Source of the DNA: Paracamarosporium sp. OC-R06-R3
Lineage: Eukaryota; Ascomycota; Dothideomycetes; Pleosporales; Didymosphaeriaceae
Length of the DNA: 19,746 bases
Direction: 5' to 3'
NCBI GenBank assembly: GCA_019828545.1
Contig: JACVRA010000666.1
Location: 1-19,746, forward strand
Shown piece after piece: positions 189 through 19,610 of this stretch. Below the pieces are notes generated by a model. The model did not search any database. It was not told the origin of the DNA and saw only the letters and a program-made list of their open reading frames with translations. The translations under genes and the position numbers were made by a program. The first letter of the stretch is position 1; each line of letters opens with the position of its first letter.

Positions 189-1858
189 CTACTCGCCATT
201 AAACCTAGGCACACCAACACTCTCAGCATCTAAAACCACGCCTCCCCTAACTAATCTTTCCCTTAATTCTGAATACTTCACATCCTGCACAGGAATTCCA
301 TTCTTGAGCGCAATATCACTTGCCTCCGCACACGCTTGCCCTATCGCGTAGAACTGGTGCTCTAATCTTACAGCTCCATACCCTACATGACTACTACTCG
401 GACACGTCGCGCTTAAAAAGTTCGTTGCTTCCTCCCTCTTTGGTACCAGGCTCCTGTAACTAACTCCAAACGGCCGCCATCTATGTCCGTCCTTGAATAT
501 GAAGCCTTCGTTGTGGACGCGATCGTCACGGATGATGCGTCTTACGGAGTGCGTGTCAGTTGGCCAGAAGGCCACGGCCACAGGGTCATCGACTTGCGGA
601 ACAGGATGCGGGTTCTCCGGAGAAGGTCCCGAGGCTGTAGCCTCCGTGATGATGTAGTCTGAGACCATGCGTCGAGCATCACGCACATAAAGCTCATAAG
701 GGAAGTGCCCGTTATCGGGAAACTCATCTTTACAGTATCCGAATTTGGACCATGCATCGCGGTAGGGTTTCGGTACACCTGGATCGGTGGAGATGAACCA
801 CAGCAGGCCTTTTGTGAATGTGGCAGTCTCTTTCAAGATCTCTTTTCGGCGAGCGTAGGATGCGGTAGGCCACTCATCGTTCATGCCGAGTAGATCTGTG
901 GAGAGCGCTCCTTCGGAGCCAATAAGATCGGTCTTACCATTGGGAAGGCGCTTGTTGGGCATGTAGAAGGTGCCCCCTGCAGCGAAATAGCGGCGGTGGA
1001 GTTCGTACCAGGCCGGGTCGTAGCCTTCTGGCTCCGTGAAAGGAACGAGATTGGAGGGTTGGTCTGTGACGGGAAGACGATAGGAATACGACTGCAAGTG
1101 TTTGTCGCCATCGCCTGGGGTCCCGAATAGTTCGCCTGAGATGCCGTAGAGGAGGCCGCTGGAGGGATTGCCAGGTTCAATATAGGGGTCTAATAGGACA
1201 TCAATCTGGCGGTAAAGTGTTTCGGCGCGAATACCAGCTAGGGACTCAGTGTAATGGCCGGAAGACTCGCGGCCTAGTGTCCAGGAGATACCCACTGCGG
1301 CCAGGAGATCACCTTCGTAAGAGGCTTCGATGAACATATCGCCTGTTACTATGGCGCCATTCGCAAGCTGCATGCTTTTGATAATGCCTTTATTTTGTTT
1401 AATTGCGTCCTGTTTCTCCACGAGTGGTGATTTAAAGATAGTGATACGGTCTTCATACTCTCTCAGCCATTGACCAATCACGTTTTCGGCCACTCGTGCT
1501 TCAAAACGCCAAACATCTACATCTTTGCTCTTTTGAAGTACAACGTTGTTCAAACGCTCCAAGCGACCATAATGCTTGCTTATACGTTGATGAAGTTCGA
1601 GGTTCAGACCTCCCAATGTAGTGCTGTTTTGAAACTCAGCCTGATTGTCGATGTCGGTCGCACCAAGGCCATTAATTTGTATTCCACCTGCGAAAAAGCG
1701 ATCAGTCCGTAGAAACAACGCCTGACAGAGAAGCTCATACCAACGTGTTGTGCTGGGGATACCAGAGCAACTGATCGACCCAAGCGAGCGGCTTGGATGG
1801 AGGCTGCGACAGCTGCTGAAGTCGAGCCATATACAACGAGATCGAAGTGCTCAGACAT
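189..1858 (-). CDS. FAD-dependent oxidoreductase, two exons
   Basis: Exons are 1741-1858 and 189-1687 (minus strand), separated by a 53 nt intron (1688-1740) with donor GTATGA, acceptor TCGCAG and a CTGAT branch-like site. Splicing restores the motif HVGGIQINGLG across the junction, giving 538 aa. The first 40 residues form an FAD-binding Rossmann segment (DLVVYGSTSAAVAASIQAARLG). HVGG-x-x-x-x-GLG-x-TD follows at about residues 38-51. A middle segment (FIEASYEGDLLAAVG) and a C-terminal SHVGYGAVRLEHQFYAIGQA stretch are typical of the FAD_oxidored (PF12831-like) family, often labelled xanthan-lyase-like in fungi. The start chosen is ATG 1858, giving MSEHFD; an in-frame ATG 14 codons upstream (1900) is possible but adds no family sequence. 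No signal peptide is visible, so the enzyme is probably cytosolic. The substrate is unknown. It is transcribed divergently from the sugar permease, so a linked catabolic role is plausible but inferred. Confidence 0.88.
1688..1740 (-). other. Intron of the FAD oxidoreductase
   Basis: 53 nt GT-AG intron. Read unspliced, the frame breaks in the middle of the conserved HVGG motif. Removing it joins CACGTTG to GTGGAATAC and restores H-V-G-G-I-Q, which is strong internal proof of the splice. Confidence 0.9.
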
Positions 1859-2601
1859 CTTCTCTTGGCCAACGGTGAACGAACCGTGTATACCTCTCAC
1901 GACAGGTGTTAACAGGTAACAAAGACCGAAAATTCCAAAACTGGCGAGCTCAAATATTCAAAAGGTCCGACTACGCGTTGTACTATGCCTAGGTAGGTAG
2001 TTCTGCAGCTTTACCGTGCAGGGTGACGTTGCCTGAATCTTTATCCAAGAATATTTGACGCCAGGGTCGAACGGCACCGGGTCACGAACTCCTTGTAATT
2101 ACTTCGGACTACCGCGCGGCCAATGTTCGGTTCTTAATCCGCAATTCGGCGTTGCGCGCGGGGCGACCGCGCTAATAAGCAATGATCACCATAGCCAATG
2201 ACTTTGACTTGACTCAGTTTGCTAATTGATTCGAAGAGGACTTGACATAGGAAGGTTCTTGAAGCAACGTTCACACATCTTCCCGTACGAGTAGCTTGGG
2301 AAACATCATTGTGTGGTAATGCTCCCGTCGTGCCATGTTTGCCAGCACTTTTCGGCCATCTTCCCGGGCTCTCGGCAGACTTCCGAGCCCATGAAATCGG
2401 GACCCACCAGCTAGTAAATAGCGCTCGTTGCTTGGATTGACTTTCTCCAGATTTTCCCCAGAAGACTTCCTTGGATTACCCCGATGCTCGGGAAAGTTGT
2501 ACCGTCGCAGTGGGCGGTCAGAAGTTATATAGTTCGATCGTCGTTTCCACAATGTATCGCAGCCATTGTCATCAATTCCCTTTGCGCGCGATATTGTCAC
2601 C
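1859..2601. promoter_or_regulatory. Shared divergent promoter region
   Basis: 743 bp between the start codons of the FAD oxidoreductase (minus) and the sugar permease (plus). A TATA-like TTATATAG lies at 2525-2532, about 70 nt before the permease ATG. The overlapping open frames here show no family sequence and I read them as chance. I found no carbon-catabolite (CreA) site that I would defend. Confidence 0.5.
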
Positions 2602-4431
2602 ATGGGTCGCGGTGTTTTCGCCGGCAAGGCGGCCTATTCAACGGCCACTCCTCGCCTCATGTTCTACTGTTGCATCTACGCGATGGGCAGTGTGTTCTTC
2701 GGATACGACGGCGCTTCCTTCGGCGGTGTGCAAGCAATGGCGCCGTTCTTGCGACAATTTGGTACCTATAACGCAAAGACGCACAAGTACGCATTAGGAA
2801 AATCTACACAGTCTTTGATGAACTCGCTGCCGTTACTCGGAAAGTTCCTCGGTGCTGTCATTGTTGGGCCAATCATCGAGAGGATAGGGCATAAGCGCAC
2901 AATGTATGCGACTTGCTGTGTGCAGGTTGTGGGGCCGATCATACAAGTGACAAGTAAAGCACCTACGCAATTCATTGTGGGGAGGTTCTTAGTATATACC
3001 GCAGTCGGGCTTGTGGAAAATGTGTGAGTAGAAATTGATCAACTTAGAGAAGCGATGGTCTAACCTAGGCAAACTCTAGGGTGCCGACGTTCCAGTCTGA
3101 AATAAGTCCCGCGCCACTTCGAGGGTTCTTTGTTGGGTCGATCCAGCTCCTGCTTACCTTCGGCTCTCTCATCGCGGGTATCGTAAACGAGTCCATGTCT
3201 AAGAAAATCGACGATTCCGGTTGGCAGATCGCCACGGCCCTGCAAGCGCTGCCGGCAGTTATCATCTTAAGTCTTCTTTGGCTGACTCCAAACTCACCAC
3301 GCTGGCTCGTTTTTAATGACCATTCCGATGAGGCAGTCCGGATCCTCCGCACTGTGCGTAAGAGGGAGGCTGTTGATAGTGGACAGCCAGAGTTAGAAGT
3401 TGCATCTATGAGAGAGCAGGGCGCCATTGGGCGTCAGAAGAAGGGTGGGTGGATGGAACTATTCAACCAGAAGAATCGCACACGAACTCTCATCGCCTGC
3501 ACGATAATGGGGTTTCAACAGCTGACAGGTAATTATTTCGTCTAATTTCTTGCTGGATGATCCGATCAGCAGGAGCTAATGTGTAACAGGTGTGACCTTT
3601 TCCTCTTCGTACGGTCCAACGTTCTACAAACAAGTAGGTTTCGGAGACAAGGCCTTCATTTATGCGGTTGTAAACAACGCAACCTCTGTAGTAACCGCTT
3701 TGATGTCGATGGTGTTTTTCGATATTTTCGGACGACGCAGTCTCGTGTTCTGGGGTGGCTTTGGCCAAGCCGCATTCCTTTTCTCTGTTGCCGCCCTCGG
3801 AAATCTTGCTAGGCCCAGCGTCTCCGAAGCAAACGGTGTCGTTGCCGGTATGCAACTCTATACCTGCATTCTGCATATGACGCTTGGTCCTGGCGCCTAT
3901 GTCACTGCTGCCGAGGTTGGAACGCAGTCGCTCCGTGAAAAGACCATGGCTATATCCGTAAGTGACGTTCCATCACAAGGACACTGACGGTAGCACATAG
4001 CTAATAGCTCTAGACGGCCTGGAATGTTGTCGTCGGTTTCGCTGTTGTCTACTCGACACCATACGGCCTCGCGTCGCTAGGCGCAGGCATCGCCTACGTC
4101 TGGGGAGGTTTTGCTGTTTTGAGTTCGATCTGGGCATGGTTCTTCATGCCAGAACTTAAGGTAAGATTGCCATCTCTAATCATTTGCAACACCCATGAAT
4201 TAACCCTACGCCAAGGGCCGTACTTTGGAAGAAATCGATCAGATGTTTGACGCCAAAATTCCCGCATGGCGGTTCTCAACATACGAAACAGAAGGTCTGA
4301 GCCATGATCTCTCTGTCCTAGAAAACAAGGGCCATCTTGATGCCAAGGCAGTTCAAGATGTGGACGACATAGAAGAAAATGCCGGAAAACGTACAGATCG
4401 GGTGAGCATCGAGGCGCAGAATAAACAATAG
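2602..4431 (+). CDS. MFS sugar transporter (sugar porter family), five exons
   Basis: Exons are 2602-3023, 3080-3528, 3590-3957, 4014-4160 and 4216-4431, totalling 1602 nt and 533 aa. All four introns are 55-61 nt GT-AG, and every junction restores family sequence: ENVVPTFQSE, QQLTGVTFSSSYG, TMAISTAWNVV and PELKGRTLEEID. Sugar-porter hallmarks are GYDGASFGG in TM1, ERIGHKR and FDIFGRR loop motifs, a GRF..VGLVE...P.FQSEISP..LRG signature, PNSPRWL (variant of PESPRWL), QQLTG, and the C-terminal GRTLEEIDQMF. About 12 membrane helices are expected. The start is ATG 2602 in a good context (TCACCATGG); the frame upstream is open but has no better ATG. It would import a sugar or related polyol across the plasma membrane. 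The substrate cannot be read from sequence; the alpha-glucoside/hexose branch is the closest match by eye. It shares a promoter region with the FAD oxidoreductase. Confidence 0.92.
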
Positions 4432-4875
4432 AACAGACCGTATCAATAGCTTTGCCTCCAATATGCTGGCCATGGCACCTTGGTAAGCTAGCCACCTACG
4501 CATTGGCCGATACGCTCTGATTAACGCTAAACCCCGACTCTCTGTAACGACACGATGGGTTTTTATGAAAATGGAACGCCTTATGTAAATTGGCCTTGCG
4601 ACACATAATAATCGTGAATTTTTCAATTCTATGGTGTGGATGTGTAGTAATAGGTCACTGTTCTGGGAGGAGCATGCTGGACGTTGTATGTGGGGCTATC
4701 GCCCTGCTCACTGAGGCGTAGAGTGCCTGCCAAGTTGCCCACTACATGCAACAGCGTACGGTACTGTGCCGTTGAACTCACCCTAGAAGTCCATAGGTAG
4801 TCTGCGTTTCATCGTACGGCCTTTGGCGGGGCTTCACAATTCGGAGGTGAAAAGATATCCGCAAATCTTGTAGCG
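4432..4875. other. Intergenic, no gene seen
   Basis: Downstream of the permease and should include its 3' UTR. I see no gene, RNA or repeat here. Confidence 0.5.
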
Positions 4876-5434
4876 ACTCGAAAAGGGAAACTGGGGGCTG
4901 TTTGAAGCAAAGAAAACAATTGGGGGCTGTTACGGACTTCATTGGGCGACCGACAAATGCAGGGTGGGTACGCACCGTGTGGGCTTTGTAGCGCGCATGG
5001 ACACAGAATCGAGAGGCGGGCTTACTCTGATTCGGAATAACTCAGTGTGTCTCTTGACCAGCACTATATCTGTGCCTACTTCTATCCCACCTCTTTCTTC
5101 AATCAACATCTCGCGTGCAATATGACTTTTGCTAAATTCACAGGACCATGTTCTGCACATCGAACCAGAGCTCTACAAAACAGAAATCTTGGACGGAGAT
5201 ACATGGTATGACCTGCGGCCAATGTATCGGCATACCCTCAAGGTTTCTGAGCTTCTGGTCGCTGCGGCCAAACTTTTACCGCAGCTACAACACGTTGAGG
5301 TTGAGATGCGTACCTACATTTGGGGCAAAATACGCATGACACACCTTAAAACAATATACAAGGATAATATGGTTTGGATCCGCAGGCACGATATGAATAC
5401 TGCAATCAATCATGACTTTTCTCATCAGTGTTAG
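4876..5434 (+). pseudogene. Exon-like frame, unrecognised gene or remnant
   Basis: Two open stretches share one frame. 4876-5122 runs from after a TAG and contains an ATG at 4997 (MDTESRGGLTLIRNN). 5144-5434 follows a textbook branch point and acceptor (TTGCTAAATTCACAG, ending 5143) and ends in TAG. A possible donor at about 5039 (GTGTGTCTC) would join them in phase. The second exon has protein-like composition: VSELLVAAAKLLPQLQHVEVEM looks like an amphipathic helix, and TYIWGKIRMTHL follows. I do not recognise the family. It may be the 3' end of a gene whose front is lost, or a small lineage-specific gene. The function is unknown. Confidence 0.3.
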
Positions 5435-5654
5435 AGTATATTAGGTTAATATTCTTCTTGATAAGCAGCAGCCATTGTCTACCGACTGGCTTTAATGTGC
5501 TCCATTGTATTGCGATTATACCCTTGCGGACTTGAGCATTTTGTCAAGGGTTGAAATGGACTTCTATTGGGTATACATTCGTCTCTACAGAAGCAAAAAG
5601 ATAAGAAGGAAAGGGGTTCCTTTCCTGTACGAGTACAAGTGTTGGCTCGCTTAG
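5435..5654. other. Gap before kinase relic
   Basis: AT-rich, with no sustained coding frame. A kinase-like gene would be expected to have its catalytic loop exons here, but no HRD-like sequence is seen in any forward frame I read. Confidence 0.4.
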
Positions 5655-6140
5655 GCTTCGTGTAGAGAATTAGGAGTATACTACCCTTTATTCATTGGTT
5701 TCGATAATGCACGCCTCGACATCCACACAGCTTTCTCCAAAAGCTCCGAAGAGAACGCAGCAGTCCAAGCATACCAACCTCCACTATACTCACCATCCGC
5801 GCAGTTCGAGATCCCCACAAGCACCACAGATCGTTTCAGGCAAGCGTTCGACTACTATAGTATCGGCCCTGTCCTACTTGAAATCGCTCTGTGGAAGCCC
5901 CTAAGTATCACCATCGCCCAAACAAAGCGCGGACCGGATACCGTACTGGTTGATGTTTTGGACAGACACACGATCATGTCAAGTATATATATCTGTAGAG
6001 TGTATGAAGAGGTGACACAGAAATACGTTTTAGTGTATAAGCATACCAGAGGACTTGATAAAGAAGCAACAAGAGATTGGTTTAGTGCAGAAGTAAAGCG
6101 TCCGTTAGAGATGCGCGCAAGTATGATCTTGCACTGGTAA
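5655..6140 (+). pseudogene. C-terminal remnant of HeLo-associated protein kinase-like gene
   Basis: An open frame of 161 codons between a TAG (5652-5654) and a TAA, with no ATG until about 5976, well inside the domain. The translation begins YYPLFIGFDNARLD, resembling the activation-segment region (GF-x-x-SR) of the fungal kinase-like domain found in HeLo/prion-inhibition-and-propagation proteins. It continues with PPLYSPSAQFE and then DYYSIGPVLLEIALWKPLS, which is the alpha-F/alpha-G part of the kinase fold. It ends with VYEEVTQKYV and WFSAEVKRPLE, matching the usual C-terminal helix. The N-terminal HeLo domain, the ATP-binding lobe and the catalytic loop are absent, so I call it a truncated relic. 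Family membership is recognised by motif only. The alternative is the last exon of a gene with very distant upstream exons, for which I see no evidence. Confidence 0.65.
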
Positions 6141-6365
6141 TGTGTATCTGCTGTACCCATAGTATCGGCTGAGGTTGGAGCCCAGTTTGAAGACCCGATT
6201 TCGTTCACAAGTTTTGGGTTGACTGTTTAGATCTTCGCATTCATCATTAGCAACCATAACATGATTTCTGTGTCTCTTTTCTTCCGCATTAGCAGTAAAG
6301 ATGTCCTTGTTAGTACTTGTCGCGCATTGATTCGCGTTTCCATCATTTTAAACATCAGGCGTAAG

Positions 6366-6720
6366 TCATTCCTCGAATGTTCCTTTCTCCTGAACCTTCG
6401 CTATGAATTCATTGACAATATTACGTATGTATTTAGCTAGCGTCTCAGGGTCTATTAAAGACGGACTGTGACCGCTATCCATGTGTCGCGTGTATCCTAA
6501 GGCGACTATTAGCTCCTTAAATAACTATCACGAAGGGCCTCATGCAGCCGCAAGGCAACATCTAATCGTTGTCACAGACAATATACCACATCAAAACATC
6601 GTCATAACCGGGTCCAATTCTGCAGAGCTTGCCTCAATCAAAGCTGACTAAGTCACAGCTTTCAAGCCCAGTACTCTGCATCCGCCGGTTCTAGGTCTCA
6701 AAAGAGTCTTGGTTTTGACA
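6366..6720 (-). pseudogene. Decayed alpha/beta-hydrolase C-terminus
   Basis: Minus-strand relic ending in TGA at 6366-6368. The last segment reads ATHMDSGHSPSLIDPETLAK followed by YIRNIVNEFIAKVQEKGTFEE. GHSP with flanking D-S is the catalytic-histidine region of fungal alpha/beta-hydrolases (AB_hydrolase_6/EstA-like). Upstream come PGYDDVLMWYIVCDND, then an in-frame TAG, then MLPCGCM, matching the family's WxYxxCxxDxxLP strand. Further upstream, frame-shifted pieces read DLEPADAEYWA and LKAVT-stop-SALIEASSAELD. At least three stops and two frameshifts separate recognisable blocks. The nucleophile-elbow half is not recognisable. It may extend weakly to about 6960. It is non-functional as it stands. 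Confidence 0.65.
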
Positions 6721-7186
6721 TCTTGGTAGGTGATGTCTTCCATATTCTCATCAGGATTGCCGAGAAGAGCTCTCGATAGTACATCACATCCTTGATCACC
6801 ATACTAGTAGTTTGAATAATGCCCCTCCCATGGCCATCTCTTTCTCGGAGATTTAGTTCTGCGTAGCCTGCAATGGTGCTACAACCGGCAATACATCATC
6901 CCACAACGCTAGTTTCAGTCCAACGCCCTCCATTAGCGAAGGAAATTTTTTATTACCCCGCATTTTTGCTTCATCGCCACTCAAATCCCTCATGAAATTC
7001 ATGCATGAATTTCAGCGACTCAGTAGCCCATTGTGTTTTCCGTCGAATGTTTCTAAAATTTGCATTTGTATTGTGGATGTGGGTCATGAAATCTATTAAT
7101 CATCTCATGACAACGACAGCATCGGTAATCTAGTGTAAAATTCAAGAGTTATACGAAGTCGCTAAAGTTAGACCATAAGAACTTCC
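6721..7186. other. Intergenic, possible weak hydrolase remains
   Basis: No intact gene. Minus-strand pieces such as SLMEGVGLKLALWDD (about 6890-6950) are open but not convincingly homologous to anything. The 7140-7186 part should hold the 3' UTR of the ATPase-HET gene. Confidence 0.35.
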
Positions 7187-10100
7187 CTACTCTACAGAAA
7201 CGACTTCTTCTTTGATCCCTTTGAATTCCAAGCTCTCACCATACATAATACCGTGGACATAGGCCTCTCCGACGAGAGCCTGACATTTTTTTGACTCTGG
7301 TTGTGAGATGAGAAATGGTACGACGCCACCATTTATCACGAATACCCAATCGCCTTTCGTAACTGCCGGAGGCCCAACGCCTACATACCCTTTCTCTGTG
7401 ACGAAGAACCTTCCATCTGAGAGCCGCTTCATAAAGGTTGCTGCTGTGGTCCAATACTTCCAGCTCTGCTCACGCTTGGCCTTGGGTCGCTGCAGGAGTT
7501 GGACGATGTCGTGGGCGGAATGGACGTCCATGAAGCTTCTGTTCCAGTCGAACGCGTCTTCTTCTTGGCCGTCAATAGCTATTACTGGATGCTCTATCGA
7601 TGGAATCAAGTCATCAGTGCAAGGTGCTACCGCGTTTCCGATTGGAACTTTAAGCATGACTTTTGCAAGCGACTCCCCAGTCGGATAGACGCCAAGCTCT
7701 TGTATCATACTGCGTGCATCATTGACTACACTAATGATATCGTAATCTCGCATGCTTCTTGAACTAATATCGGAAACGGTATCGACATGCATGCCAGTAA
7801 GCGACAAGAGATTATTGTTGATGTTGTCAATGGAAATGCGTGAATATGTCGTTCCGGCCGCCGAGAAAACACCTTTAGTTCCGCGCCAGGTCGAAATTGT
7901 CTTGCATGGCTCGCAGCCCGTCCAATTTGGAATCCAAGAAGAAAACTCGTACGATTTACCACGCCCAGACCGGTAGAGCATATCCAGTCCGTTTCCCCTA
8001 TGGACGAACTCTTGGGCATATCTGCGCACTACACATTCCAGTGAAGAAGCGTAGTCAGGGTCAAACACCGCATCTCCAGAGTCGGAGGCTATACCAAGCA
8101 TTGAGAAGAGTTTGTCGTACGCTTTCGTGGACTTCGTGTAATGGAATGTATCGAGAAGTGACATGAGATGGAAGCGATGAGACAGTTGTTTGTGTTGGAA
8201 TGCATTTCGAGCGAGCCCGAGGGAATATGCAATCTTTAGTGATGGGAAACTCTGCCTCAACAATGAGTTGGGTTGTAGTAGATCGGTGTCGTTCTCGCAG
8301 CATATCTCCACGGCTTTGAAAATATCTTCCCAATCGACCTCGTAATCGCCACATATCAGCTTGAGCTCATGAGCGAGCACTACTTCTTGGATAATCCATA
8401 CACGTGAAAACCACTCTCGTTTGAAGATATCCCTGATAGCCTGCCACACCTCGTCCGATGGAGGGGGTATCCCATTACGCCACGTATCAGGGATATCTGG
8501 GAGATCTTCTGACCAATCCATTGGCGACAATTCCAAGGTACGTATCTGTAGCAACGTCTGAATCGCCTTATCACTATCTTCGTATACATCTCCGATCCAT
8601 CCGACAACGCCCTCGGCGGATTGGAAGATCCTTGGGAGCATACGAATTTGTTCGGCCTTCTCATGGTCGTCATTTTGATTGATGCAAACTGCATCTGCCC
8701 ATATAAATATCGCTTCGTTATCGTGTCGTAGCCTTTTCAAAGCTTGGGTTAAAGATGTTGTGAGGGGGATGTCACCCCGAGAAGACTTGAGCTGAGAAGT
8801 CACCATCGCTGGACCCCATACGTAGGACAGCGCCTTGTACGGTCGTCTCTCGTCCATATGCATGTGGTGAATCTTTCCAGACAAGGGATCGTCTTCTTGA
8901 CCTGGGAACAGCTCTAAAATTCTTATCGCACTGAATTGCAAGCGTTCGTAGCGATACAGCATCGGTACTGGCTGCGGTGAAGGCGTACGGCTCTCTCGAT
9001 GGAGCTTTCGCCTGTGAAATATCCTCCCAAGGTTTCTCTCCTCCTTGAAGCTACGGGGAATCTCTTCAGGGTCTTTTAGAACGATTCCCTTCGCTTCTTG
9101 CTGGAACATCGCTTGATGCTGACCGATAGAAGCAAGTTTCAGAATTCCTTCGCTGTGTAGCCTCCAAGGATCGACAAAAAGGATCGTTTCTGGTTTGGTC
9201 TGCACGTTGATCACTCTAATGAGGAGATAAACTTGATGAGGCGGCGTTTCCGTCATGCCAGTGTGGCAAGTCCAAGCCTGAGGAAGTTGTCAGCATCCAA
9301 AAGTGTCTTATTGCTCTATAGTCTATGGAGTTACAGAAGTTGAGACTGGTTAGCCATTCACATCGATCACAGACCGCACTTACCTTTTCAACTTGATGCG
9401 GGTCTAAACAGAATACTTCCGATAGGTCTCCCTTGGAAGGTACGACTTCGATATAGTAGATCGGAAACTTTCGCCATGATGTAGCCTTCTTGTACCCTAA
9501 GCGCGTTAGGAGGTTTGAAAAGCCGCCTTGAACATCATCGATGGTGAAAGTTGAACAAGTTTTATCGTATGCCAAGAACGGAAGAATACCTGCTTTGCTT
9601 CGCAGTGGACTCGTCCAATGAAGTTCTGGCGTAAAAGCTGACCCCAAGTGCTTTTCGAATAATCGTGATACCTGTCCAGAGTTTAGAAAATACGGGCCAT
9701 ATTGGAATCTAGCGACCCACATGAAGCTCAGCGGCGAAGAGGATATCTTCTCCGACCATGTTCCTTATCGCTGTGGAAACCTCAATCCGTATGTTCCGCC
9801 GGTTGTCCTCATACATGCACGCAGGAAAGCGATTAGCCGTCTTCGAGATGTTGCCCTTGGCGTGTATTGTTCTCGATTGGTTCCAGCTCACACCTGTGAC
9901 GGTACCTGGCATCTTATCTTGCGCTTTAAGTAAGCTATTCCAATCGTCCCTCTTCTGTGGTAGAAGCATCCAGGGATCGATGTTTTCTAACGTGCAAAGA
10001 TGCGCAAGCATTTCGTCGGCTTCGGCCTCGGCCCATGGCTGATGAAGCCGTTCGCGGAACGAATTAGCCATATCAAACTTCTCAAGAAATGATTGAACAC

Positions 10101-13100
10101 TATCTGGGAGACCCGCTGGGAGGTCAGAAAATTGACGTTTAGTTGGTTTGGGCTTTTTCGTAGATAAACGGCCCCAGAATCGTCGGTGAGTTTTCTGTTC
10201 TTTCTCAAAAATGTCTTCATCCGAATCGCTGCCATATATAGATGCATCATCAAACTCAGGAACGGCTTTGGGTACTCCTCTTCGCGAAAGCTGCCTATCG
10301 ATTTCGTCGAGCTCAGGCTCAGATAGGATGAAATCGAGGAGCCTCAATTGTCCAGTATCGTGAATGTCACAAATTTTTCCAATGTGTTCGCGCAGCTCTA
10401 GAGGCGTTTTGCCGACATTCGCATCGTCTTCTGGCAAATAGATATTTATGGTTTTCCCTCTGTGAGCAATTTTGATGCGTCCAGCGTCTGCACGGCCTAG
10501 GACTTCAACGCCATCAATCTTTACTGCCCATTTGAGGATCACTTCTTCAGAAGTATATACGTTGAGATGACACAATTGGTCGATGATCTCTGCCCGCACT
10601 GGGCTATCCGATGGTAGAAGTCTGATCGCTCACTTAGCCTAGTGTGTTACAATGATGTCTCGTTCACTTACCGTGCAATGTATCTAGCCTTCGCGCGGAG
10701 GACAGCAGTGAACTTTTGGTGAAGTTGCGTTGGCCCGTTCACATTCGCGTATTCTTCCGCGGCACTAGAAAGTAGCCTACCTTCCAGTCCCAACGTAGAG
10801 ATTACAAGGTGAATCTTTTCGATAGTTTCCACATCCAAGGCGAGTAGAGGAACAATGCCGTCAAAGCTCTTTCTTAAATGCCAACGATCTGCAATAAACC
10901 ACATATCAAGGGCTCCTGCGGTACACGTGTAGTCAAATACCCATTTAGATTTGCCAGCAGATATAGGAAATAATCGAGAATTTTTCAGTATCTTTACGAT
11001 TTCAGCTTTCGTTTTGGGGTCTTTAGCATCTTTTAAGCAGACATTGATAGCCTTGAAAACTTCAGCGATGTGCTCGACGTCGTCAGAGGCATCAATGAAT
11101 TCGGCTTCATCAATGATCGTCTTCCAAGTGGCATTCTCGATGCCTAGTGTGAACCATAGGAAAGCATAGAAGTCCGGGTAGGTATCGTGGAGACATGGTG
11201 TTTTGCGGAGCCACTCGGGACCATTCCAGACGCAGAAAGAAGGGCTCGCCCAAGTACCTTTATCTCTGCGGCTTGAAGAAGGGATGTAGATCAGTTCTTC
11301 AGCCTCAAATGCATCTCTAGTAAGATGTTAGCTACATTACGAACGGCACACGACATGTTCCAGGGCGTGCTCATCTTGTAGACTTGTCGCGCTGGTTATC
11401 ATCAGGCCAGGCAATCTTAACTAATTTTCAGCTTGAACAGAACTGACTTACTTGATCTCTTTCCCTTTAGTGGCAGAATGTAGCTGCATTTGCTTGTAGA
11501 TGTCAGACACTCGCTTCACAGACGCTCCATTCTCTTTCATCTGACGAAGATAGGATAAATATTGGCTTAGCCCAGGCTCTACAACGACTCCAAAATGTTT
11601 CAGTATCTTCCAGCGAGCGTCTTGTGGCATAGGTACCTCCAGAAACTTCGTCGACTTGCTAGCATTCGGCATAAGCTCCGTCGCAGGCAGAACAGTATGC
11701 CCCAAGGGAGCTCTTCCCCCTCCTTGGCAGGGTACTAAGAGTCCGGCGATCTTGTCGCGGAATTGGGTTCTGAAATTGTCTGTCTCAGCATCGGACCGCT
11801 CTTTGGATACGAGATAGTTGGAATAATTGTCCCAATTGTCGCGAAGCAGAAGAAGAAGTCGCAATACATTCTTCTCCTCCGCTAACGCTCGAAATTCTCT
11901 TGTCAAAAGCATCTTTGGACCGTCAGACAAAACAAGACGAGGGTATTCCTCAATTCGAAGATTTTCGCGCAGCCATGTTGTCCAAGACTCATCTTTTGGT
12001 AGAACAGTCTCAGAGTAGCTCCTGTGGAGTATCGGAAAAGGCGTCCAGCGTGTAGAAAGATCTCTTAGCAGGACTTTGGCAGAGGCCGGTTTCAGAGAGT
12101 CTGCATATGTTTCGGAACCGCGATTTGCTGTGCCACCCTCAGTAACCACCCATAGATCAATTTTCTCGGGATTCCTCCACCCCGCCTTGTAGAGGTAAAC
12201 AGCGTAAGAGATAAGATCATGTATATCGATGGCATCAGGGTTGAAATTATGTTTCACTTGCTTGCTCACAATGGCAGCGCAAACCAAATCCTTGCTATAA
12301 ATTTGGGCTCCTAGCAAGACGAAAAGGTTACGCCGAGAGGATTGTAAGATGGCTTTTGGGTCGATTTCACCCATCGATATGCCGTTTGGTATGTCTGGAT
12401 CTTCGGCTTGGCTGGCAAAGCAAATCTGCTGCTGATTAGATGCAATCCACCGCCCGTCTTTCAATGGAATAATAGGAAGGGTGACCAGTTTGAATATGAT
12501 TTGTGAGTCTTGTTGAATAGCGTGCTGCAAGGCATTGGTCAAGGAGCAGTGCCATGTAGTTGGCATTTCCTGGAATCCTTTGTGATTTTCAGATAGGAGC
12601 CTCTCAAGATCTTTTATAAAGCCAGAGGTGGACAGTTTGCGTACTCCAAGGCTTATGTAGGCAGCCTCATCCCCAACAGCGTATTTAGTAGACAAATACT
12701 TAGACCGTGTATGTTCTGTCTGGATGAGAGGTGTACCTTCCTCATCACGAAATTCTTGAGGTACAAAGACCAACTTCTGGGGGGTGCACAAGCATCCAGA
12801 AAGTGATTCCATAATCTTGGATTTCTGAAGCGTCTGACGGATACAGGAGTCCAAATGCTCAAAGAAATCGGATAGCGGCGGTCTCTGAGGTAGATAACGT
12901 GACCAAGAGTAGCGTAAATTACCGTCATTTAGAATTTGAGCTGCTTGAAGGAATGCCTCCGGGATTGCCACCAACAAGCGGTGATTCCACGCAGATGACA
13001 CATCAATGTCTTCTCGATTTGCAATAAGCAAAAAATCAGCTTGCATGAGGAACTGAACGTGTCAGTGAATGCCTTAACTTAAGCACTTTGAAGACGCCAA

Positions 13101-14058
13101 CCTTGAATCCATGATCCCTGATGGGTAGGAACGCATAAACCTTTTGCGGGGCAATACAGGGTTCACCGTCCTCATCCACAGGGAAAGCGAGTAATATCTC
13201 CGAAGAATTACATCCTACACGCTTAGGATCATCTGGCATATCGTTGACCGGAAATCGGATCACCTCAAATGTCGACAATGCCTCATCGAAATGTAGATTT
13301 ACCTTACTAGCCCCTTCGAGGGAGGATGGTGAATCTTGACGTCCAAGAGTACACCTCCACACTTGTTCAAATCTCCCGTAAATTGTGACGTGAACCTGTT
13401 TGAGCTTCCTGAGGAACATCAATAGTCGGGGATCGAGGGATTTGAGTTCTTTTTCGAGTTCTGTGGTATCGTATCCATCGGACAATTGAAGAAGAACAGA
13501 GGTGTTTCGTGGTAGTCGAGTGTCAGGGAATTCGGACCAGATGGGGGCAATCATCCCCAAGGGTTGGATTTTGTCGAATTTGAAGGAATATGGGCCGGAT
13601 GATATAGAGACAACGTCGGCCACCTTAAACACTGATTTGAAACCGATACCCTTCTCGCCTATGTATCTGGTTGAACTTCCCGAACTAGCCTTCGTACTTC
13701 GACCTATCTTGCAGATGGCCTCGACATTGGATCTCCCGAAGCCAATCTCATTGCAGTCGATCCTTAGAGTCTTACTGTTGTGAGTGAACGTGATATTCAA
13801 TGTAGGCACATATGTTTCGTAGAAATTGTCATCGGAGTTCTGTATCAACTCCGAAAGGAAGTGTGTGGACTTTTGGTAGAGTTGTTCGGAAAGGCTAATC
13901 AAGTCAATCATTGTTCCCTACACAAGAAATTTGCTCACCTACATGATAAGGGCATTTTCGAGATCGCATATGTTTGTTTCCGGTCCATCAAGTCCTTTGG
14001 CGCGTCTGATTGACCTGATATGTGACCTGGCCTCTTCTTCAGTCGCTGGAATATCCAT
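7187..14058 (-). CDS. NO VEIN-like ATPase / DUF3883 / HET-domain fusion protein, seven exons
   Basis: Exons (minus): 13943-14058, 13102-13894, 11452-13052, 10672-11316, 9721-10603, 9384-9671 and 7187-9277. They total 6417 nt and 2,138 aa, and all six introns keep phase. Residues 1-38 plus exon 2 form a Hsp90/sacsin-like ATPase domain: N box ELIQNSDDN (54-62), variant G1 box CNEIGFG (86-92), and GEKGIGFKSVF (118-128). Further family blocks are YAFLPIRDHGFK/FLMQADFLLIANRED and FAAELH/VSRLFEK...HWTSPLR. An acidic stretch (about 1169-1183) and a basic, NLS-like stretch (about 1189-1209) lie before the DUF3883 domain (about 1347-1480: YYIEVVPSKGDL, LDPHQVEK, YLLIRVINV, FVDPWRLHSEG). A 55-60 residue linker leads into a full HET protein: YKALSYVWG (1589-1597), IWADAVCINQND (1634-1645), WFSRVWIIQEV (1731-1741), and a C-terminal TEKGYVGVGP...GEAYVHGIM. 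HET domains trigger death in incompatible fusions and resemble TIR folds. The proposed role, an ATP-dependent sensor with a death effector, is inferred. Confidence 0.85.
9278..9383 (-). other. Intron 6 of ATPase-HET gene
   Basis: 106 nt, phase 0, donor GTAAGT, branch GCTGACA, acceptor TTCCTCAG. The join reads HQVEK-AWTCHTGMTETPPHQVYLLIRV, linking the two halves of the DUF3883 region. This junction matters because it puts exon 7, which also carries the HET domain, in the same protein as the ATPase. Confidence 0.85.
9672..9720 (-). other. Intron 5 of ATPase-HET gene
   Basis: 49 nt, donor GTGGGT, branch TCTAAACT, acceptor GGACAG. The join reads FAAELH-VSRLFEKHLG, a family-conserved block; unspliced sequence meets a stop at once. 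Confidence 0.88.
10604..10671 (-). other. Intron 4 of ATPase-HET gene
   Basis: 68 nt, donor GTAAGT, acceptor GGATAG, with GGCTAAG as a branch-like site. The join reads ARYIAR-PVRAEIIDQL in phase. Confidence 0.85.
11317..11451 (-). other. Intron 3 of ATPase-HET gene
   Basis: 135 nt, donor GTAAGT, branch GCTAAC, acceptor TTACTAG. The join reads KGKEIK-DAFEAEELIYIPSS and opens the otherwise startless exon 4. Confidence 0.85.
13053..13101 (-). other. Intron 2 of ATPase-HET gene
   Basis: 49 nt, phase 0, acceptor CGTTCAG. The donor GTTGGC is weak, but it is the only one that restores DHGFK-FLMQADFLL across the junction. Confidence 0.75.
13895..13942 (-). other. Intron 1 of ATPase-HET gene
   Basis: 48 nt, donor GTAGGT, acceptor GATTAG. 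Removal joins LENALI to ILSEQLYQKSTHFL, the usual start of the NO VEIN-like ATPase domain. The ATG at 13909-13911, which a simple frame search would choose as start, lies inside this intron. Confidence 0.8.
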
Positions 14059-15040
14059 GAGGTCACCACCTATTTGATTTCAAAGAAAATGTAGCCAGCT
14101 GTGTTGCTTGATCCAATCCTTCATATCCCCTCAAGCTAACAACGGCAACGATATTATCGCACAGAATGTATAGGCGATCAAAATTGAGAGCAGGCTGAGA
14201 ATGTATGATCAGGTCTCGAAAGGGTGTGCCTCGTATTCTTATGCATGTCGCAAGGCTGAGGCTGAGGCTGAGTCGACGCAGCTACCACTCTGGAACACGA
14301 TTTTGGAGCTTCATCGACGATGCCGGAACGTGAGGTAAATCACGTGGCAGTTGAAGGAAGATCAAGTTGTGATGGTGAGTTTGCATAAACCAAACTTCAG
14401 CCACCTTGCGTATGGCCACATATGTGAGCTGCTGAGTGAACATTGTCCAAAAGGTCGTACATGATCTAAACGCCTGGGCACAAGGCAAAGTAACGAAGAG
14501 GAAGTCTCCTTGAGAGATACCAGGCGTGTGCAATGGACTTATATGAAGCTATAGACTTGCTTCTTGGTTCGAAGCAAAGGAGGTTGAGAACAGCGCGCTT
14601 CGGTACAGTGCTACCTACCGTGTCCGTGCACGCGATGCGAGGATTCGCGCAATACGCCAAGCTGCAGAGCCATACTCAATAGCTGCTATCACGGACTGTT
14701 TAATAGATTAATCTCTATAGACCTATGCGACAATATTCTTTCATACAAAACGTGCAGGCAGAGTTGAGGTGCTGCCGCGGCGGATGGTTGTTGTAGGAGC
14801 TTCCCGGAGCGGGCTTGCATTACGACGAGCAGTTTCCACCAATTGGGTAGGGGAACACTTATTGTGGAGCCAGAACGTCATCACTGGGGATGCTTGATCC
14901 ACCCAGATCACGTCGCCACTAGTAAAGCTATGTGCACTTTGAGTTGACCGTCCTGTTGCACGAGATTAAAACCGAGTCCTCATTTCAATAAAATGGTATA
15001 TAAATATAAATCAAAGAATTCTTGCATCAAATCACCAATA
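14059..15040. other. Intergenic, no gene seen
   Basis: Holds the promoter of the ATPase-HET gene. A short hexanucleotide repeat (GGCTGA three times) sits at about 14252-14272. Two overlapping minus-strand frames (14282-14660) show no recognisable family and I do not call them. The frame at 14784-14897 is treated under rejected items. Confidence 0.5.
14252..14272. repeat. Short GGCTGA tandem repeat
   Basis: About three and a half copies of a GGCTGA-type hexamer, roughly 200 bp upstream of the ATPase-HET start codon. A simple repeat with no function I can argue for. Confidence 0.6.
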
Positions 15041-15111
15041 GCATCGGTGGTTTAGTGGGAGTACGCGTGCGGTGACTATAAATACACCGGGTATGCTCAG
15101 GATTTGACTTT
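15041..15111 (+). pseudogene. Decayed tRNA-Gly-like sequence
   Basis: The first 20 nt (GCATCGGTGGTTTAGTGGGA) match the acceptor 5' strand, D-arm and A box of eukaryotic tRNA-Gly with two differences. Similarity collapses across the anticodon arm, then CCGGGT recurs at 15087-15092, exactly where the T-stem start would fall. The B box and 3' acceptor strand are not conserved, and no cloverleaf forms. I read it as a tRNA-Gly pseudogene or the head of a tRNA-derived element. Confidence 0.4.
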
Positions 15112-15488
15112 CAAATACTGAGGTATCGAACTCTTTTTTTCCTTGAAAACGATTTTCGAAAATGGATTCTCAAAACTCATACCCCGGCATGGCCCCCATG
15201 CACTACCCAGATCTATACGGAGGATGAAACAATTCTTTACAAGGTACAACTGGCGCTGACGGTAGTCGAATCTGTAAAGATGTGGGGGCGGGGTTGAGCC
15301 TCCGCGATCCAACAGTTAGGTTGGTATAATACCTGTGACGTCATGCTAGGCACCAGCCTCGGACCCAATTCATTGCCGACAGGTTAAGTCAAGTGATCGA
15401 GGGGCCGCCCTCTGCAGTCTTGAATTTTTGCAACCCACGGCAGTGCATTCTCAGTCTCCTACTACAACACCATATCAAATAGTTTCAT
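15112..15488. other. Upstream region of the 288-aa orphan gene
   Basis: Non-coding. It should contain the promoter of the gene at 15489. The minus-strand open frame across it looks like chance. There is no clear TATA box close to the ATG; the last 60 nt are CA/CT-rich, as in many fungal 5' leaders. Confidence 0.4.
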
Positions 15489-16355
15489 ATGTCGTCTCAA
15501 AACCACGGAGTTGAGCTCTGCCTTAAGTTCAACTTCTGTCCACCAGCCACTCTCTCAATCTCTAACCCCTCGGCATCACCTTTGAAGCTGATCGCCACCA
15601 TCCACCAAACCTCCTCGGTCTTCCCAGATAGACCCGTTACTATCTTGACCAAGTACTCATGTCTCGACACTACGCCTCGTGAGGATGCGTTCCGCAAGGG
15701 CGATATGCACTCACCGGAACTCGCATTTTCTTCCACCCGACAAGTAGATGGCTCTGCAAAAGTGCTTAACCTCCGACCCACAAAGCGCATTACGTTCCAC
15801 CGGATATCAGGCGACCCAGATCTTGCCAAACGCCCTGAGGATCCCGATACCCCTGGATTCACTTTCATCACAATTCCTCCGGTAGGAAAAGATTCTGTAC
15901 AAGTTGCGTGGGAGCTCTCTGCTGAACGGCTTATGTCGAGTCTCGGCGACGACTCAACCTCGCTCCAAGAAAAGCTTGAACATTTTCTACGAGTCGGCGA
16001 CACCTACCATGTCTGGCCCGGCGATCTTTCGATTCGATGGTGGTCATTTGGCTCCTTGGAAGACCCGGAAGGCTTGAAAGGCAAGAAAATCTCGCGCTTC
16101 AGCTTTTCTGACGATCTGGGGTTGGATAGGGAAATGGGAGCAGATGAAAGCGAAGAGGTTGTTAGTAAGATGCAGGATCTTATTGATTTGCATAACGTGA
16201 ACAAGTTGTCTTCGAGAAGCGCCGTGGAAGGAGAAGAGAAGCCGGATATTAAGAAGATGAGGGAGGAAGGGTGGGTTTTCGGAGAACCGCCAGGGCTGTT
16301 GAAGATGATCGCGCAAGACGAAGACAAAGTAGCGACTTTCAAGATCGTAGAGTAA
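15489..16355 (+). CDS. Hypothetical protein, 288 aa, single exon
   Basis: Intact frame from ATG 15489 to TAA 16355. I do not assign a named family. The first 170 residues alternate hydrophobic strands and turns (LSISNPSASPLKLIATIH, PVTILTKYSCLD, GFTFITIPPVG, SVQVAWELSAERLM) and look like a beta-sandwich of the small conserved-unknown type seen in many ascomycete genomes. The PVTILTKYSCLD part is the most family-like. A tryptophan-rich patch (HVWPGDLSIRWWSFG) follows. The last 90 residues are charged (GADESEEVV, EGEEKPDIKKMREEGWVFGEPP) and probably partly helical. No signal peptide, membrane helix or catalytic motif is seen. Reading-frame length, codon usage and the start context support a real gene. 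It does not obviously belong to either neighbour. Confidence 0.75.
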   Translation: MSSQNHGVELCLKFNFCPPATLSISNPSASPLKLIATIHQTSSVFPDRPVTILTKYSCLDTTPREDAFRKGDMHSPELAFSSTRQVDGSAKVLNLRPTKRITFHRISGDPDLAKRPEDPDTPGFTFITIPPVGKDSVQVAWELSAERLMSSLGDDSTSLQEKLEHFLRVGDTYHVWPGDLSIRWWSFGSLEDPEGLKGKKISRFSFSDDLGLDREMGADESEEVVSKMQDLIDLHNVNKLSSRSAVEGEEKPDIKKMREEGWVFGEPPGLLKMIAQDEDKVATFKIVE

Positions 16356-17510
16356 GGCGGTTGGCTCGTTAGGCAAGTCTGTCAACAGTCCATTAAGATA
16401 ATATACCTAAGCCATGCATACTTCGTTCTCAATCACGCGCTGCTTGAGATTGAATTTGCGGAAGAGTGACAGTTCATTCCAGGCACCAGCAGACGATACC
16501 ATCTGTTCGGCGTGCAGTGCTTTTCCAATCTAGATTCTTTCATTTTGAGGCTGTACAAACTGCCCGGTTCCCTATTGAGACAGGATATGTAAGGGTAAGC
16601 GAAAGAGAGCACCTTCCAACAAATCATTTTGCTGCAGCTGCGCCACTTTCGCCCAAAGTAGCCCTACACAAGGATTCGATAGCAGTTCATCTCGCCTAGG
16701 CTGTGCGTCTACGTTCATGCAATATTCTAATCCTCGTGGCTGCAAGAAGATTCTCCCTTCATTCGTCAATCGAGACAAAGGGGACGCTGCATGGATGCAA
16801 TTGATCGAGTCCCCCTGGAATTTCTCGGATCTAAGGGGTCATCACCGCAAGTTCAGAATGGCGATCCTTTGTGGAGAGGATTTTAATCCTGGTCTGCAAG
16901 GTGGTTGAGTATTGACACCCCATCGATTAGCTATCATGCAAAGGCTGGTAATACAGGTGTGTTGGTTCCCAAACAGATAATGACGGAGAATAATGGACCA
17001 GACAAATTGCAGGTTGCAAGGGTCCAGTGGAACGATCACGTTCCCGTTAACGTCGGCTATTGGATGTTATCAAACAGGCAGGGCATGGAAAGCACTTGAG
17101 CGCTATAAACAATCCTCCCCCCGCCCCCCAGGTCTAGGTAGAGAGTGAAACAATAATATAGGCCCAAAAAGTGCTAATGTTTATTGCCCCTATTCGCATA
17201 AAGTATGTAGAGGAAGAATAGGCAGTTTACTAGGACAAGATTGCCACCCTTGTTGCGTTCTATCACTCAATTGAAGTAGTCAAGTACCTACGCATACATC
17301 GAGCCAGTTAGGTGTCCGGCTTTATGTAAACATTAATCGATGCATCATAGCACGTTAAAGAAGGCGGACCCAATGTGCGATACTAGATACATACATAGAT
17401 ATGTTATGTTGTTAAATAATCGCGTGATAAGAATTATTAAGTATCTAATGAAAAGTGATGATTGATTGATTGTGTCTATCCTTGTGGTTTCTATCTTTTT
17501 GTGGTTTTCT
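16356..17510. other. Intergenic, no gene seen
   Basis: About 1.15 kb between the orphan gene and the LTR-like stretch. Open frames at 16466-16699, 16717-16908 and 16905-17099 are short and show no recognisable motif. A CCCCCCGCCCCCC-like tract lies near 17117-17130 and a GATT repeat at about 17457-17471. AT content rises from about 17140 on. Confidence 0.5.
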
Positions 17511-17759
17511 TGTTGAGTGCACTTGTCTTCTTATTGAGTGCATGTGAAATACCGGTGTCGGGATAGGTACAGGTGCACCAGCCACCTCGCAGAGATGACC
17601 ATGTAATCAGACATATGTATTGTAACCCTCTGTGCATATGCCTGCCGTGCAGCTTGCATATATGAACTCTCCTTCCTTGCTAGTATCTATAAACAACCTT
17701 TGCGCCGGTGCCCTTAGGCTCGTTAATTGCTAGGAGTAGGACAATAAAGGTATCCACCA
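17511..17759 (+). repeat. Possible solo LTR of a retrotransposon
   Basis: 249 bp that begins TGTTGAGTGC and ends CCACCA (TG...CA). It contains a TATA-like CATATATGAAC (about 17657), TATAAA (about 17688) and AATAAA (about 17742), in the order expected of a U3-R LTR. A TTGAGTGCA repeat occurs twice near the left end. No matching 5 bp target duplication is seen (TTTCT against TTCGT), and there is no second LTR or retrotransposon coding sequence in the window. The call is weak. Confidence 0.25.
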
Positions 17760-17791
17760 TTCGTATTTTACTAAGCCATCTTTTAGCCATA

Positions 17792-17843: not shown

Positions 17844-17856
17844 CCCCCACCAGAAT

Positions 17857-17875
17857 GTACTATCACTTATAGTAC
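17857..17875. repeat. Palindrome copy 1 (GTACTAT-N5-ATAGTAC)
   Basis: Perfect 7-bp-arm palindrome with spacer CACTT, seven nt before the transposase ATG. It could be an operator or secondary transposase site. Confidence 0.7.
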
Positions 17876-17881
17876 AACGCA

Positions 17882-19534
17882 ATGTCTCAACAACAGAATA
17901 CTCTATCGCCACTAAACGAAGCCCGAATACAGCTCGCGCTTCAGGCTATTAAACAAGACGTAACACTATCAGTTACACGCGCTGCAGTAGTCTATAAGGT
18001 CCCTGAAAGAACGCTAAGGCGAAGACGCGCTGGAATCACCTTTCGACGCGATTGCACGCCCAACTCAATGAAGCTGCTTAAGACAGAAGAGCAGGTGATT
18101 GTTCAGCATATCCTTGACCTAGACGCACGAGGATTTCCGCCCCGACTTACTGCTGTAAAGGATATAGCTGACTCTTTGTTGGCTGAGCGGCACCGCGACC
18201 CTGTTGGCAAGAACTGGGCTTCAATATTTGTTAAACGCCAACCAGAGCTCACAGTGAAGTTTAATCGAAAGTACGACTACAAGAGAGCCCTCTGTGAGGA
18301 TCCTGAGATTATACAAGACTGGTTCCGGCTTGTGGAGAATATGAAAGCCAAGCATGGTATCCTAGATGACGACACCTACAATTTTGACGAGTCAGGCTTT
18401 ATGATGGGCATAATATCAACTGGAGCAGTTGTCACAGGCTCTGAGCGTCGAGGACGGCCAAAGAGCGTGCAGCAGGGCAACCGGGAGTGGACTACAGTCA
18501 TCCAAGGCATCAATGCGATGGGGTGGGCGATCCCACCCTTCATCATCTTTCAGGGCAAGCACCACCTCTCTACCTGGTACAAAGAGAAGGATCTACCACA
18601 CGATTGGGTTGTTGCAGTCTCTGAGAATGGCTGGACAACAAATGAGCTTGGTCTACGTTGGCTGAAGCACTTTGATAAGCATACAAAGAAGCGTGTTGTT
18701 GGTGCAGCACGTTTGCTCGTTATCGACGGCCATGAGAGCCACGACTCGCTTAAATTCCAGCAATACTGCAAGGATAATAAGATTATTACTCTCTGTATAC
18801 CTCCACATTCGTCGCACCTCTTGCAGCCGCTTGATGTGGGCTGTTTTGCGCCTTTAAAGAAGGCGTATGGGCGCCAAGCTGAGGATCTAATGCGCAACTA
18901 TATCAACTACATCACCAAAATCGAGTTCCTACCTTGTTTTATTGCGGCTTTTCATGCTTCAATCACTAAAAGCAATATCCAAGGAGGCTTTCAAGGCGCT
19001 GGATTGGTTCCCCTCGATCCAGAGGCTGTGATATCGAAGCTTGATGTGAGGCTACGTACTCCATCGCCTTGTACTATCGTCAATAGTACATGGCAGTCGC
19101 AAACGCCAAAAAACACCCTAGAATTAGGGTCGCAATCGACGCTCGTGAAGCAGAGGATTCAGAGGCATATAGATAGTTCGCCATCTAGCATGGTTGAAGC
19201 CTTTGAGAAGATAGCAAAGGGCGCGGCGTTGATGGCGCACAGGCTGGTGTTGGCGCAAAAACAGATCTCTGAGCTTCAAGCTGCCAACGAGGCCGCCATA
19301 CGACGCAAATCTCATAAAAGAAAGCGTATACAGCGTAAGGGAGTTCTAATAGCTGAGGAAGGCCTACGGCTAGCTACTCTAAAGGACTTTGCAGCGCGTA
19401 GTGATGGCAAGAAGGCGAAGAAGAGGGCGTGCATTAATAGAGGCGAATCGACTCAACGGCGTTGTGGACGCTGTGGCCAGCCTGGGCACAACAGAACAAC
19501 TTGTAAACAGCTTGTAGAAGTAGATTCTGAGTAG
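17882..19534 (+). CDS. Fot1/pogo-type DDE transposase with C-terminal zinc knuckle
   Basis: Intact 550 aa frame. Order: a Pipsqueak-type helix-turn-helix (about 10-52, with VPERTLRRRRAG); a CENP-B/Tc5-type DNA-binding helix bundle (about 65-130, with GFPPRLTAVKDIADSLL and NWASIFVKRQPEL); and a DDE_1 catalytic core (about 155-345). Candidate catalytic residues are D169 (NFDESGF), D282 (LVIDGHESH) and D318 (QPLDVGCFAPLK). The last two are separated by 35 residues, the DD35D pattern of this family. After a basic, coiled-coil-like region (about 460-520) the tail carries a CCHC zinc knuckle (CGRCGQPGHNRTTC), common in Dothideomycete Fot1-like transposases. The enzyme should cut and paste its own element by binding the terminal repeats. 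No internal stop or frameshift is present, so it may be active. The ATG is followed by SQQQNT in a normal context. Confidence 0.95.
   Translation: MSQQQNTLSPLNEARIQLALQAIKQDVTLSVTRAAVVYKVPERTLRRRRAGITFRRDCTPNSMKLLKTEEQVIVQHILDLDARGFPPRLTAVKDIADSLLAERHRDPVGKNWASIFVKRQPELTVKFNRKYDYKRALCEDPEIIQDWFRLVENMKAKHGILDDDTYNFDESGFMMGIISTGAVVTGSERRGRPKSVQQGNREWTTVIQGINAMGWAIPPFIIFQGKHHLSTWYKEKDLPHDWVVAVSENGWTTNELGLRWLKHFDKHTKKRVVGAARLLVIDGHESHDSLKFQQYCKDNKIITLCIPPHSSHLLQPLDVGCFAPLKKAYGRQAEDLMRNYINYITKIEFLPCFIAAFHASITKSNIQGGFQGAGLVPLDPEAVISKLDVRLRTPSPCTIVNSTWQSQTPKNTLELGSQSTLVKQRIQRHIDSSPSSMVEAFEKIAKGAALMAHRLVLAQKQISELQAANEAAIRRKSHKRKRIQRKGVLIAEEGLRLATLKDFAARSDGKKAKKRACINRGESTQRRCGRCGQPGHNRTTCKQLVEVDSE
19071..19089. 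repeat. Palindrome copy 2, inside transposase gene
   Basis: GTACTAT-CGTCA-ATAGTAC, perfect arms, in the coding sequence at about codons 397-403. Confidence 0.7.
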
Positions 19535-19576
19535 ATTGTACTATTACGATTTTTCATAGTAATTTATAGTGATTCT

Positions 19577-19595: not shown

Positions 19596-19610
19596 AGACT
19601 TTAGTGAGGA

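Follow-up and report, generated by a model that had tools for sequence, protein, structure and literature searches.

An Hsp90-like ATPase, a DUF3883-like domain and a HET domain in one gene of Paracamarosporium sp. OC-R06-R3: a candidate fungal cell-death receptor

Can a fungal effector domain of the heterokaryon incompatibility (HET) type be governed by an Hsp90-like ATPase within one protein chain? The question is raised by a gene in a 19,746-nucleotide stretch of DNA from Paracamarosporium sp. OC-R06-R3 (Dothideomycetes, Pleosporales, Didymosphaeriaceae), namely contig JACVRA010000666.1 of assembly GCA_019828545.1, positions 1 to 19,746 of the forward strand. This whole stretch is referred to below as the window, and the product of the gene as the window protein. 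A sequence-only reading had proposed that the gene joins a NO VEIN-like ATPase, DUF3883 and a complete HET domain. The fusion is real and recurs in other fungi, and the protein is probably a single-chain cell-death receptor.

Gene model and domain composition

The gene is read from the minus strand; its ATG is at 14058, its stop codon is at 7187, and seven exons encode 2,144 amino acids. Its six introns (48, 49, 135, 50, 49 and 106 nt) are all of the GT-AG type and leave one frame. The number of introns and the single frame agree with the sequence-only reading; its product length of 2,138 amino acids does not, and a few splice choices must differ. From the N to the C terminus the product carries an Hsp90/sacsin-like ATPase, a large middle region, a DUF3883/NOV_C-like domain and a HET domain. 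Exon 7, an open stretch of 2,091 nt, runs without interruption through the close of the DUF3883-like domain (FVDPWRLHSEG) and all of HET, as had been claimed. A protein of Lentithecium fluviatile (P0001, Pleosporales) is 61% identical to the window protein over 100% of its length, and comparison with P0001-P0004 gave no gap at any of the six splice joins; for these two reasons chance is excluded as the source of the gene model.

A Pfam scan of the window protein with E values up to 10 detected two domains only, SACS and HET. The SACS match covers amino acids 45-143 (35.8 bits against a cut-off of 32.8, E 1e-08), and a profile of eight relatives (seven unfused and one fused, the window protein excluded) matches Hsp75/TRAP1 (1.3e-05) and sacsin (0.01), so the proposed ATPase label holds. 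The N-box Glu and Asn and the glycine-rich G2 box are kept; at the position taken here to correspond to the Asp of the Hsp90 ATP site, the window ATPase reads NE. Among 53 fused proteins with this NO VEIN (NOV) type of ATPase, pattern searches found an N-box with Glu in 45, G1 in 49 and G2 in 47, the eight proteins without an N-box including short models. Along the chain, compared with 11 relatives, the ATPase is the best conserved part (79% identity to P0001, 52-66% to the ten others), followed by the middle region (30-56%), and the fastest-changing stretches are the linkers flanking DUF3883 on both sides (15-52% for amino acids 1151-1345).

The DUF3883 label is borne out by relatives and not by Pfam. 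Pfam NOV_C (PF13020) matched neither the window protein nor its DUF3883 stretch alone, and had 0 matches genome-wide. A hidden Markov model (HMM) built only from unfused relatives lying outside the fused clade matched the stretch at 1.2e-25 and matched none of the reversed decoys; with the same HMM, each of the 34 fused proteins collected by that point showed a DUF3883-like domain (weakest 6.5e-10). Six of the nine members of a joint alignment, not individually named, match NOV_C. Against the Protein Data Bank, the DUF3883 profile returned five weak matches only, to designed repeats and lectins.

The HET domain is matched by Pfam at amino acids 1595-1746 (9.9e-29, 101 bits against a cut-off of 22.5, profile positions 1-146 of 146), and its W-x-x-x-E motif is invariant in alignments of 28 rows and of 30 rows, the latter including the window protein. 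When the domain was folded alone, TIR domains took VIA ranks 1, 3, 4, 6, 7, 8 and 9, a weak resemblance, and Foldseek gave nothing below E 0.001. These TIR matches surfaced only with the isolated domain: the 696-residue model of exon 7 (mean predicted local distance difference test score 83.7) had no outstanding fold in Foldseek and VIA, and exon 7 gave a single match in the Protein Data Bank (E 0.86). Family membership, the weak likeness to TIR and the conserved W-x-x-x-E motif are consistent with the proposed role of HET as the putative effector.

Relatives, paralogs and history of the fusion

The design recurs in fungi, with 55 distinct proteins besides the window protein found to carry a DUF3883-HET module. 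In the first search for relatives, 25 of 44 matches had HET by Pfam label; a search with an alignment of mostly unfused members gave 1,493 relatives, of which the 120 listed comprised 18 with HET and 102 without; and 30 of the 34 matches of a search aimed at DUF3883-HET were fusions, some of them short models. The sources span at least five classes of Pezizomycotina (Dothideomycetes, Eurotiomycetes with Fonsecaea, Geoglossomycetes, Leotiomycetes with Halenospora, and Sordariomycetes with Xylaria), a few fused proteins being from environmental records. Fused proteins of Clonostachys (P0023-P0025, about 2,570 amino acids) and Fonsecaea (P0122, 2,770 amino acids) are 400-600 amino acids longer than the window protein, and in P0023 two hydrophobic segments resembling membrane helices were seen by eye in the stretch preceding DUF3883. 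Xylogone P0020, without HET, and P0158, a 1,217-amino-acid HET model, are perhaps neighbouring or split gene models.

The genome (43.1 Mb in 337 contigs, with at least 151 HET matches) holds five NO VEIN-type ATPase loci: C293, which is the window, C268, C319, C85 and C245. In the first four, HET comes after the ATPase on one strand. A single open frame covers both the end of DUF3883 and HET at C268 (734 amino acids) and at C319 (924 amino acids). At C85 the two are in separate frames, and an intron between them has to be postulated. The C245 gene ends after DUF3883, with no HET match within the next 1.6 kb. The exon shared here and at two of the three paralogous loci, together with full-length relatives in many species, argues for a single chain, as had been proposed. 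The idea that fused loci are confined to short contigs was dropped, the contigs of C293, C268 and C319 being 18-25 kb and that of C85 768 kb. In the middle region of the C85 paralog (L043), a 552-amino-acid open frame (4355-6010, minus strand) contains two stretches of Zn(2)-Cys(6) clusters of the fungal type (2.8e-12 for Pfam Zn_clus) and shares its frame with conserved sequence of the middle region; this insert looks like an integrated bait domain. A further contig (C24, locus L017) carries a sacsin protein of the DUF3684 type in a 1,800-amino-acid frame.

The fused and unfused proteins differ in a nuclease-type motif, D...[DE]-x-K, whose sites were defined here from the fungal relatives. 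In the window protein the three sites are Thr1393 (Asp in most unfused relatives), Glu1427 and Val1429 (Lys in most unfused relatives). Among 56 fused proteins, 53 of them alignable, the triad is intact in none, Asp is present in none and Lys in three, whereas 80 of the 98 alignable unfused proteins (113 in all) have an intact triad, 83 the Asp and 89 the Lys. In this genome the triad is absent at all four HET-linked loci and kept in the unfused C245 gene. The nearest unfused rows outside the fused clade number 12 and sit within a 50-row set of the ATPase tree (support 100); ten are alignable, with the triad intact in none, Asp in two and Lys in six. Because these nearest relatives also lack the full triad, it most likely started to erode before the gain of HET.

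In a tree of HET domains, 36 fused rows grouped as a single clade (100/100) apart from 30 further HET domains of the Paracamarosporium genome; these comparators were the 30 best Pfam scorers there, not the closest HET proteins to be had from fungi at large. An enlarged tree, with later hits and four added HET proteins (three ankyrin-HET proteins and one other), separated 58 fused rows from 34 others (95/84); one added row, P0172, is on a long branch and may be misplaced. In the ATPase tree, the 32 placed fused rows fall within a 38-row set (SH-like support 94) that also contains six rows without HET: P0019, P0020, P0026, P0027, P0029 and P0118, of which P0026 has PF28131 (accession only) and no HET label. 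This tree was built with FastTree without bootstrap and rooted on P0050; it does not include P0147-P0168 or the 11 rows lacking an N-box match (P0021, P0039, P0078, P0103, P0113, P0127, P0129, P0131, P0133, P0134 and P0136). One old origin fits best: a single fusion, followed by losses, truncated models or exchange.

Exchange is seen in three gene predictions of one lineage, the Xylariales, in which the same DUF3883-HET module is joined to a DUF3684 ATPase: P0162 (Xylaria arbuscula), P0163 (Xylaria cubensis) and P0165 (Nemania), the model of P0165 beginning inside DUF3684 without the N-terminal ATPase part. They are 29-30% identical to the DUF3883-HET half of the window protein over about 830 amino acids; blastp gave no match to its ATPase half and instead matched the C24 DUF3684 protein, and Pfam DUF3684 matches P0162 at 8.2e-246. 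Their HET domains form a nine-row set with those of six other fused proteins (100/100) inside the fused clade, and by sequence comparison the ATPase was probably exchanged once. The changed partner is again an Hsp90-like ATPase, and for this reason the exchange is the strongest circumstantial sign that the HET module needs an ATPase of this kind.

Proposed function and competing explanations

The preferred reading, held with somewhat better than even confidence, sees the product of the gene as a cell-death receptor formed by one chain, whose TIR-like HET effector is gated by an Hsp90-like ATPase and not by NACHT or NB-ARC. The ATP-driven clamp of the ATPase, with the middle region, would hold the HET domain off until the middle region, the pseudo-nuclease or the variable linkers bind a ligand, which could be a molecule of a pathogen or of non-self origin or a damaged client protein. 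Bound ligand would change the state of the clamp, and HET domains brought together might then kill the cell, perhaps through the NAD-type chemistry of TIR domains. The earlier proposal that an Hsp90-like ATPase replaces a NACHT or NB-ARC switch stands as to architecture, which the second ATPase type strengthens; the switching itself is inferred. Its suggestion of a working conflict-system nuclease in DUF3883 does not stand, the catalytic-type residues being gone.

Several counts weigh against the preferred reading. The full triad is also missing in 18 of the 98 alignable unfused relatives: ten adjoin the fused clade, three lie within it (P0019, P0020 and P0029) and five are elsewhere or unplaced (P0037, P0076, P0081, P0127 and P0131). 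Lys is retained at its site in the three fused proteins mentioned above, Asp in none, and a DUF3883-like region was not found in 15 unfused proteins. The contrast in the triad is also largely one event in the tree, not many independent losses.

Other explanations were weighed against the same evidence. The window ATPase is akin to sacsin, and PMC3710099 reports animal sacsin paralogs with DEATH domains and suggests that these may belong to a suicidal response to unfolded protein stress; the ATPase part might thus be a sacsin-like chaperone or scaffold that senses protein damage, with HET as a stress executioner under overwhelming misfolding and no role in recognizing pathogens or non-self. This is unlikely, though the most credible of the alternatives: Pfam (E up to 10) found no J or HEPN domain in the window protein, and four HET-linked loci and one zinc-cluster insert are more in keeping with a family of receptors than with a single housekeeping sensor. 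A regulator of growth or nuclear processes, as plant NO VEIN is, with HET as a non-killing interaction or assembly domain, would agree with the 102 HET-less members among the 120 listed, and according to the HET literature most HET proteins are not known as incompatibility genes; the invariance of W-x-x-x-E over 30 rows, the window protein included, and the retention of the HET part when the ATPase was exchanged speak against it and make it rather improbable.

Two further explanations were rejected and are given very little weight. In one, adjacent NO VEIN-like and HET genes were read as one through a missed stop or in gene prediction, for which the differing frames at C85 and three database models without HET inside the clade (P0019, P0020 and P0029) could be cited; the single open exon of the window gene, the open frames at C268 and C319, and fused models from many species count against it, and the artefact was set aside on the shared exon and the wide spread of the fusion. 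In the other, the effector role falls to DUF3883 as a restriction-type nuclease, with HET merely recruiting partners. PMC3710099 terms DUF3883 a novel REase (restriction-type nuclease) domain, but no alignable fused protein keeps the motif, the window protein having Thr, Glu and Val at the three sites. An active nuclease in DUF3883 is unsupported because these catalytic-type residues are lost.

Beyond the single-chain receptor proposed for the window gene lies a broader scheme that is offered only tentatively. Fungi may hold a class parallel to the NLR proteins that switches by an Hsp90/sacsin-like ATPase: a NO VEIN-type protein whose nuclease was already dead would have gained a TIR-like HET domain, later swapped its ATPase for DUF3684 in Xylariales and taken up baits such as the C85 zinc clusters, the dead nuclease being kept to sense nucleic acid or protein.

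Locus features and place among known systems

The features of the window are collected in Table 1. The divergent open frame beside the receptor gene has no Pfam match and points away from it, with about 1.4 kb between them. The DDE_1 transposase, which is pogo/Fot1-like, lies 3.8 kb from the gene, and the C319 paralog locus has a fragment 41% alike to it at its edge. The FAD-dependent oxidoreductase and the sugar transporter are ordinary neighbours.

Table 1 Features of the window
Feature	Position	Strand	Content and evidence
Whole gene	7187..14058	-	Exon chain; full-length homolog P0001; gap-free splice joins with P0001-P0004
Exon 1	13943..14058	-	Start codon and N-terminal region; start MDIP...EARSHI common to P0001
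Exon 2	13102..13894	-	Hsp90-like ATPase core: ELIQNSDD (N-box), NEIGF, GEKGIGFKS (G2 box); Pfam SACS, motif alignment and profile of relatives
Exon 3	11452..13052	-	End of ATPase part, beginning of large middle region; identity along the chain to 11 relatives
Exon 4	10672..11316	-	Middle region; PF27504 (accession only), carried by most relatives
Exon 5	9721..10621	-	Middle region, variable linker (amino acids 1151-1345), first DUF3883 residues
Exon 6	9384..9671	-	Core of DUF3883-like domain; Thr1393, Glu1427, Val1429
Exon 7	7187..9277	-	Last DUF3883 strands, short variable linker, HET domain, C-terminal region (PF26639, accession only, in many relatives)
HET domain (PF06985)	8384..8839	-	Pfam; ends in invariant W-x-x-x-E (WIIQE); structure model
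FAD-dependent oxidoreductase	189..1850	-	
Sugar transporter	2533..3545	+	
Divergent open frame	15483..16355		290 amino acids
DDE_1 transposase	17873..19534		553-amino-acid open frame with Psq helix-turn-helix

Plant NO VEIN is among the closest known systems. Unfused fungal NO VEIN-type proteins share the order of ATPase, middle region and DUF3883/NOV_C with the window protein but are without HET, and most keep the triad that the window protein has lost. The Podospora HET-NACHT-WD40 proteins (HET-E, HET-D and HET-R) resemble the window protein in joining a TIR-related HET domain, an NTPase and a recognition region in one chain, and differ in that their NTPase is of the NACHT (STAND) type, not GHKL/Hsp90-like, and their HET domain is N-terminal, not C-terminal. 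Neither WD40, ANK, TPR or LRR repeats (Pfam scan) nor NACHT or NB-ARC (Pfam, E up to 10) were found in the window protein. Animal sacsin-DEATH fusions, as described in PMC3710099, likewise combine a sacsin-type Hsp90-like ATPase with a cell-death domain, a DEATH adaptor in place of HET; an independent origin of the animal and fungal fusions is inferred. The top-scoring HET proteins without this ATPase among the DUF3883-HET search matches, P0169-P0171, have ankyrin repeats where the window protein has ATPase and DUF3883. The fungal DUF3684 (PF12449) proteins, such as that at C24, represent a second sacsin-type ATPase, unlike the NO VEIN-type ATPase of the window gene.

The sequence-only reading was aware of no described fungal receptor class of this architecture, in agreement with searches of one open-access library (most subscription papers and preprints lie outside it), in which no description of one was found. 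That library also yielded no mention of DUF3684 and, in the passages covered, no joining of heterokaryon incompatibility with sacsin; PMC3710099, which has both DUF3883 and Hsp90-like ATPases, does not contain heterokaryon incompatibility; among the matches listed, its HET and immune papers bring up Hsp90-like only for an unrelated protein. PMC10197012 and PMC12881547 mention neither Hsp90 nor sacsin, and PMC4986451 mentions HSP90 as a co-chaperone of NLR proteins. Gene records with this mix of domains already exist in databases, labelled as hypothetical or HET-domain proteins.

The recurrence of this domain arrangement across many filamentous fungi suggests a type of immune receptor without the usual molecular switch. 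The architecture is concrete and conserved, and it offers specific residues for mutation in three places: the N-box of the ATPase, the pocket of the dead nuclease and the W-x-x-x-E motif of HET. The unfused relatives with intact nuclease-type residues raise the question whether fungal NO VEIN proteins cut anything and, if so, what. Should HET be gated by the ATPase, an Hsp90-like clamp would be an immune switch alongside NACHT and NB-ARC, with a parallel in the animal sacsin-DEATH fusions.

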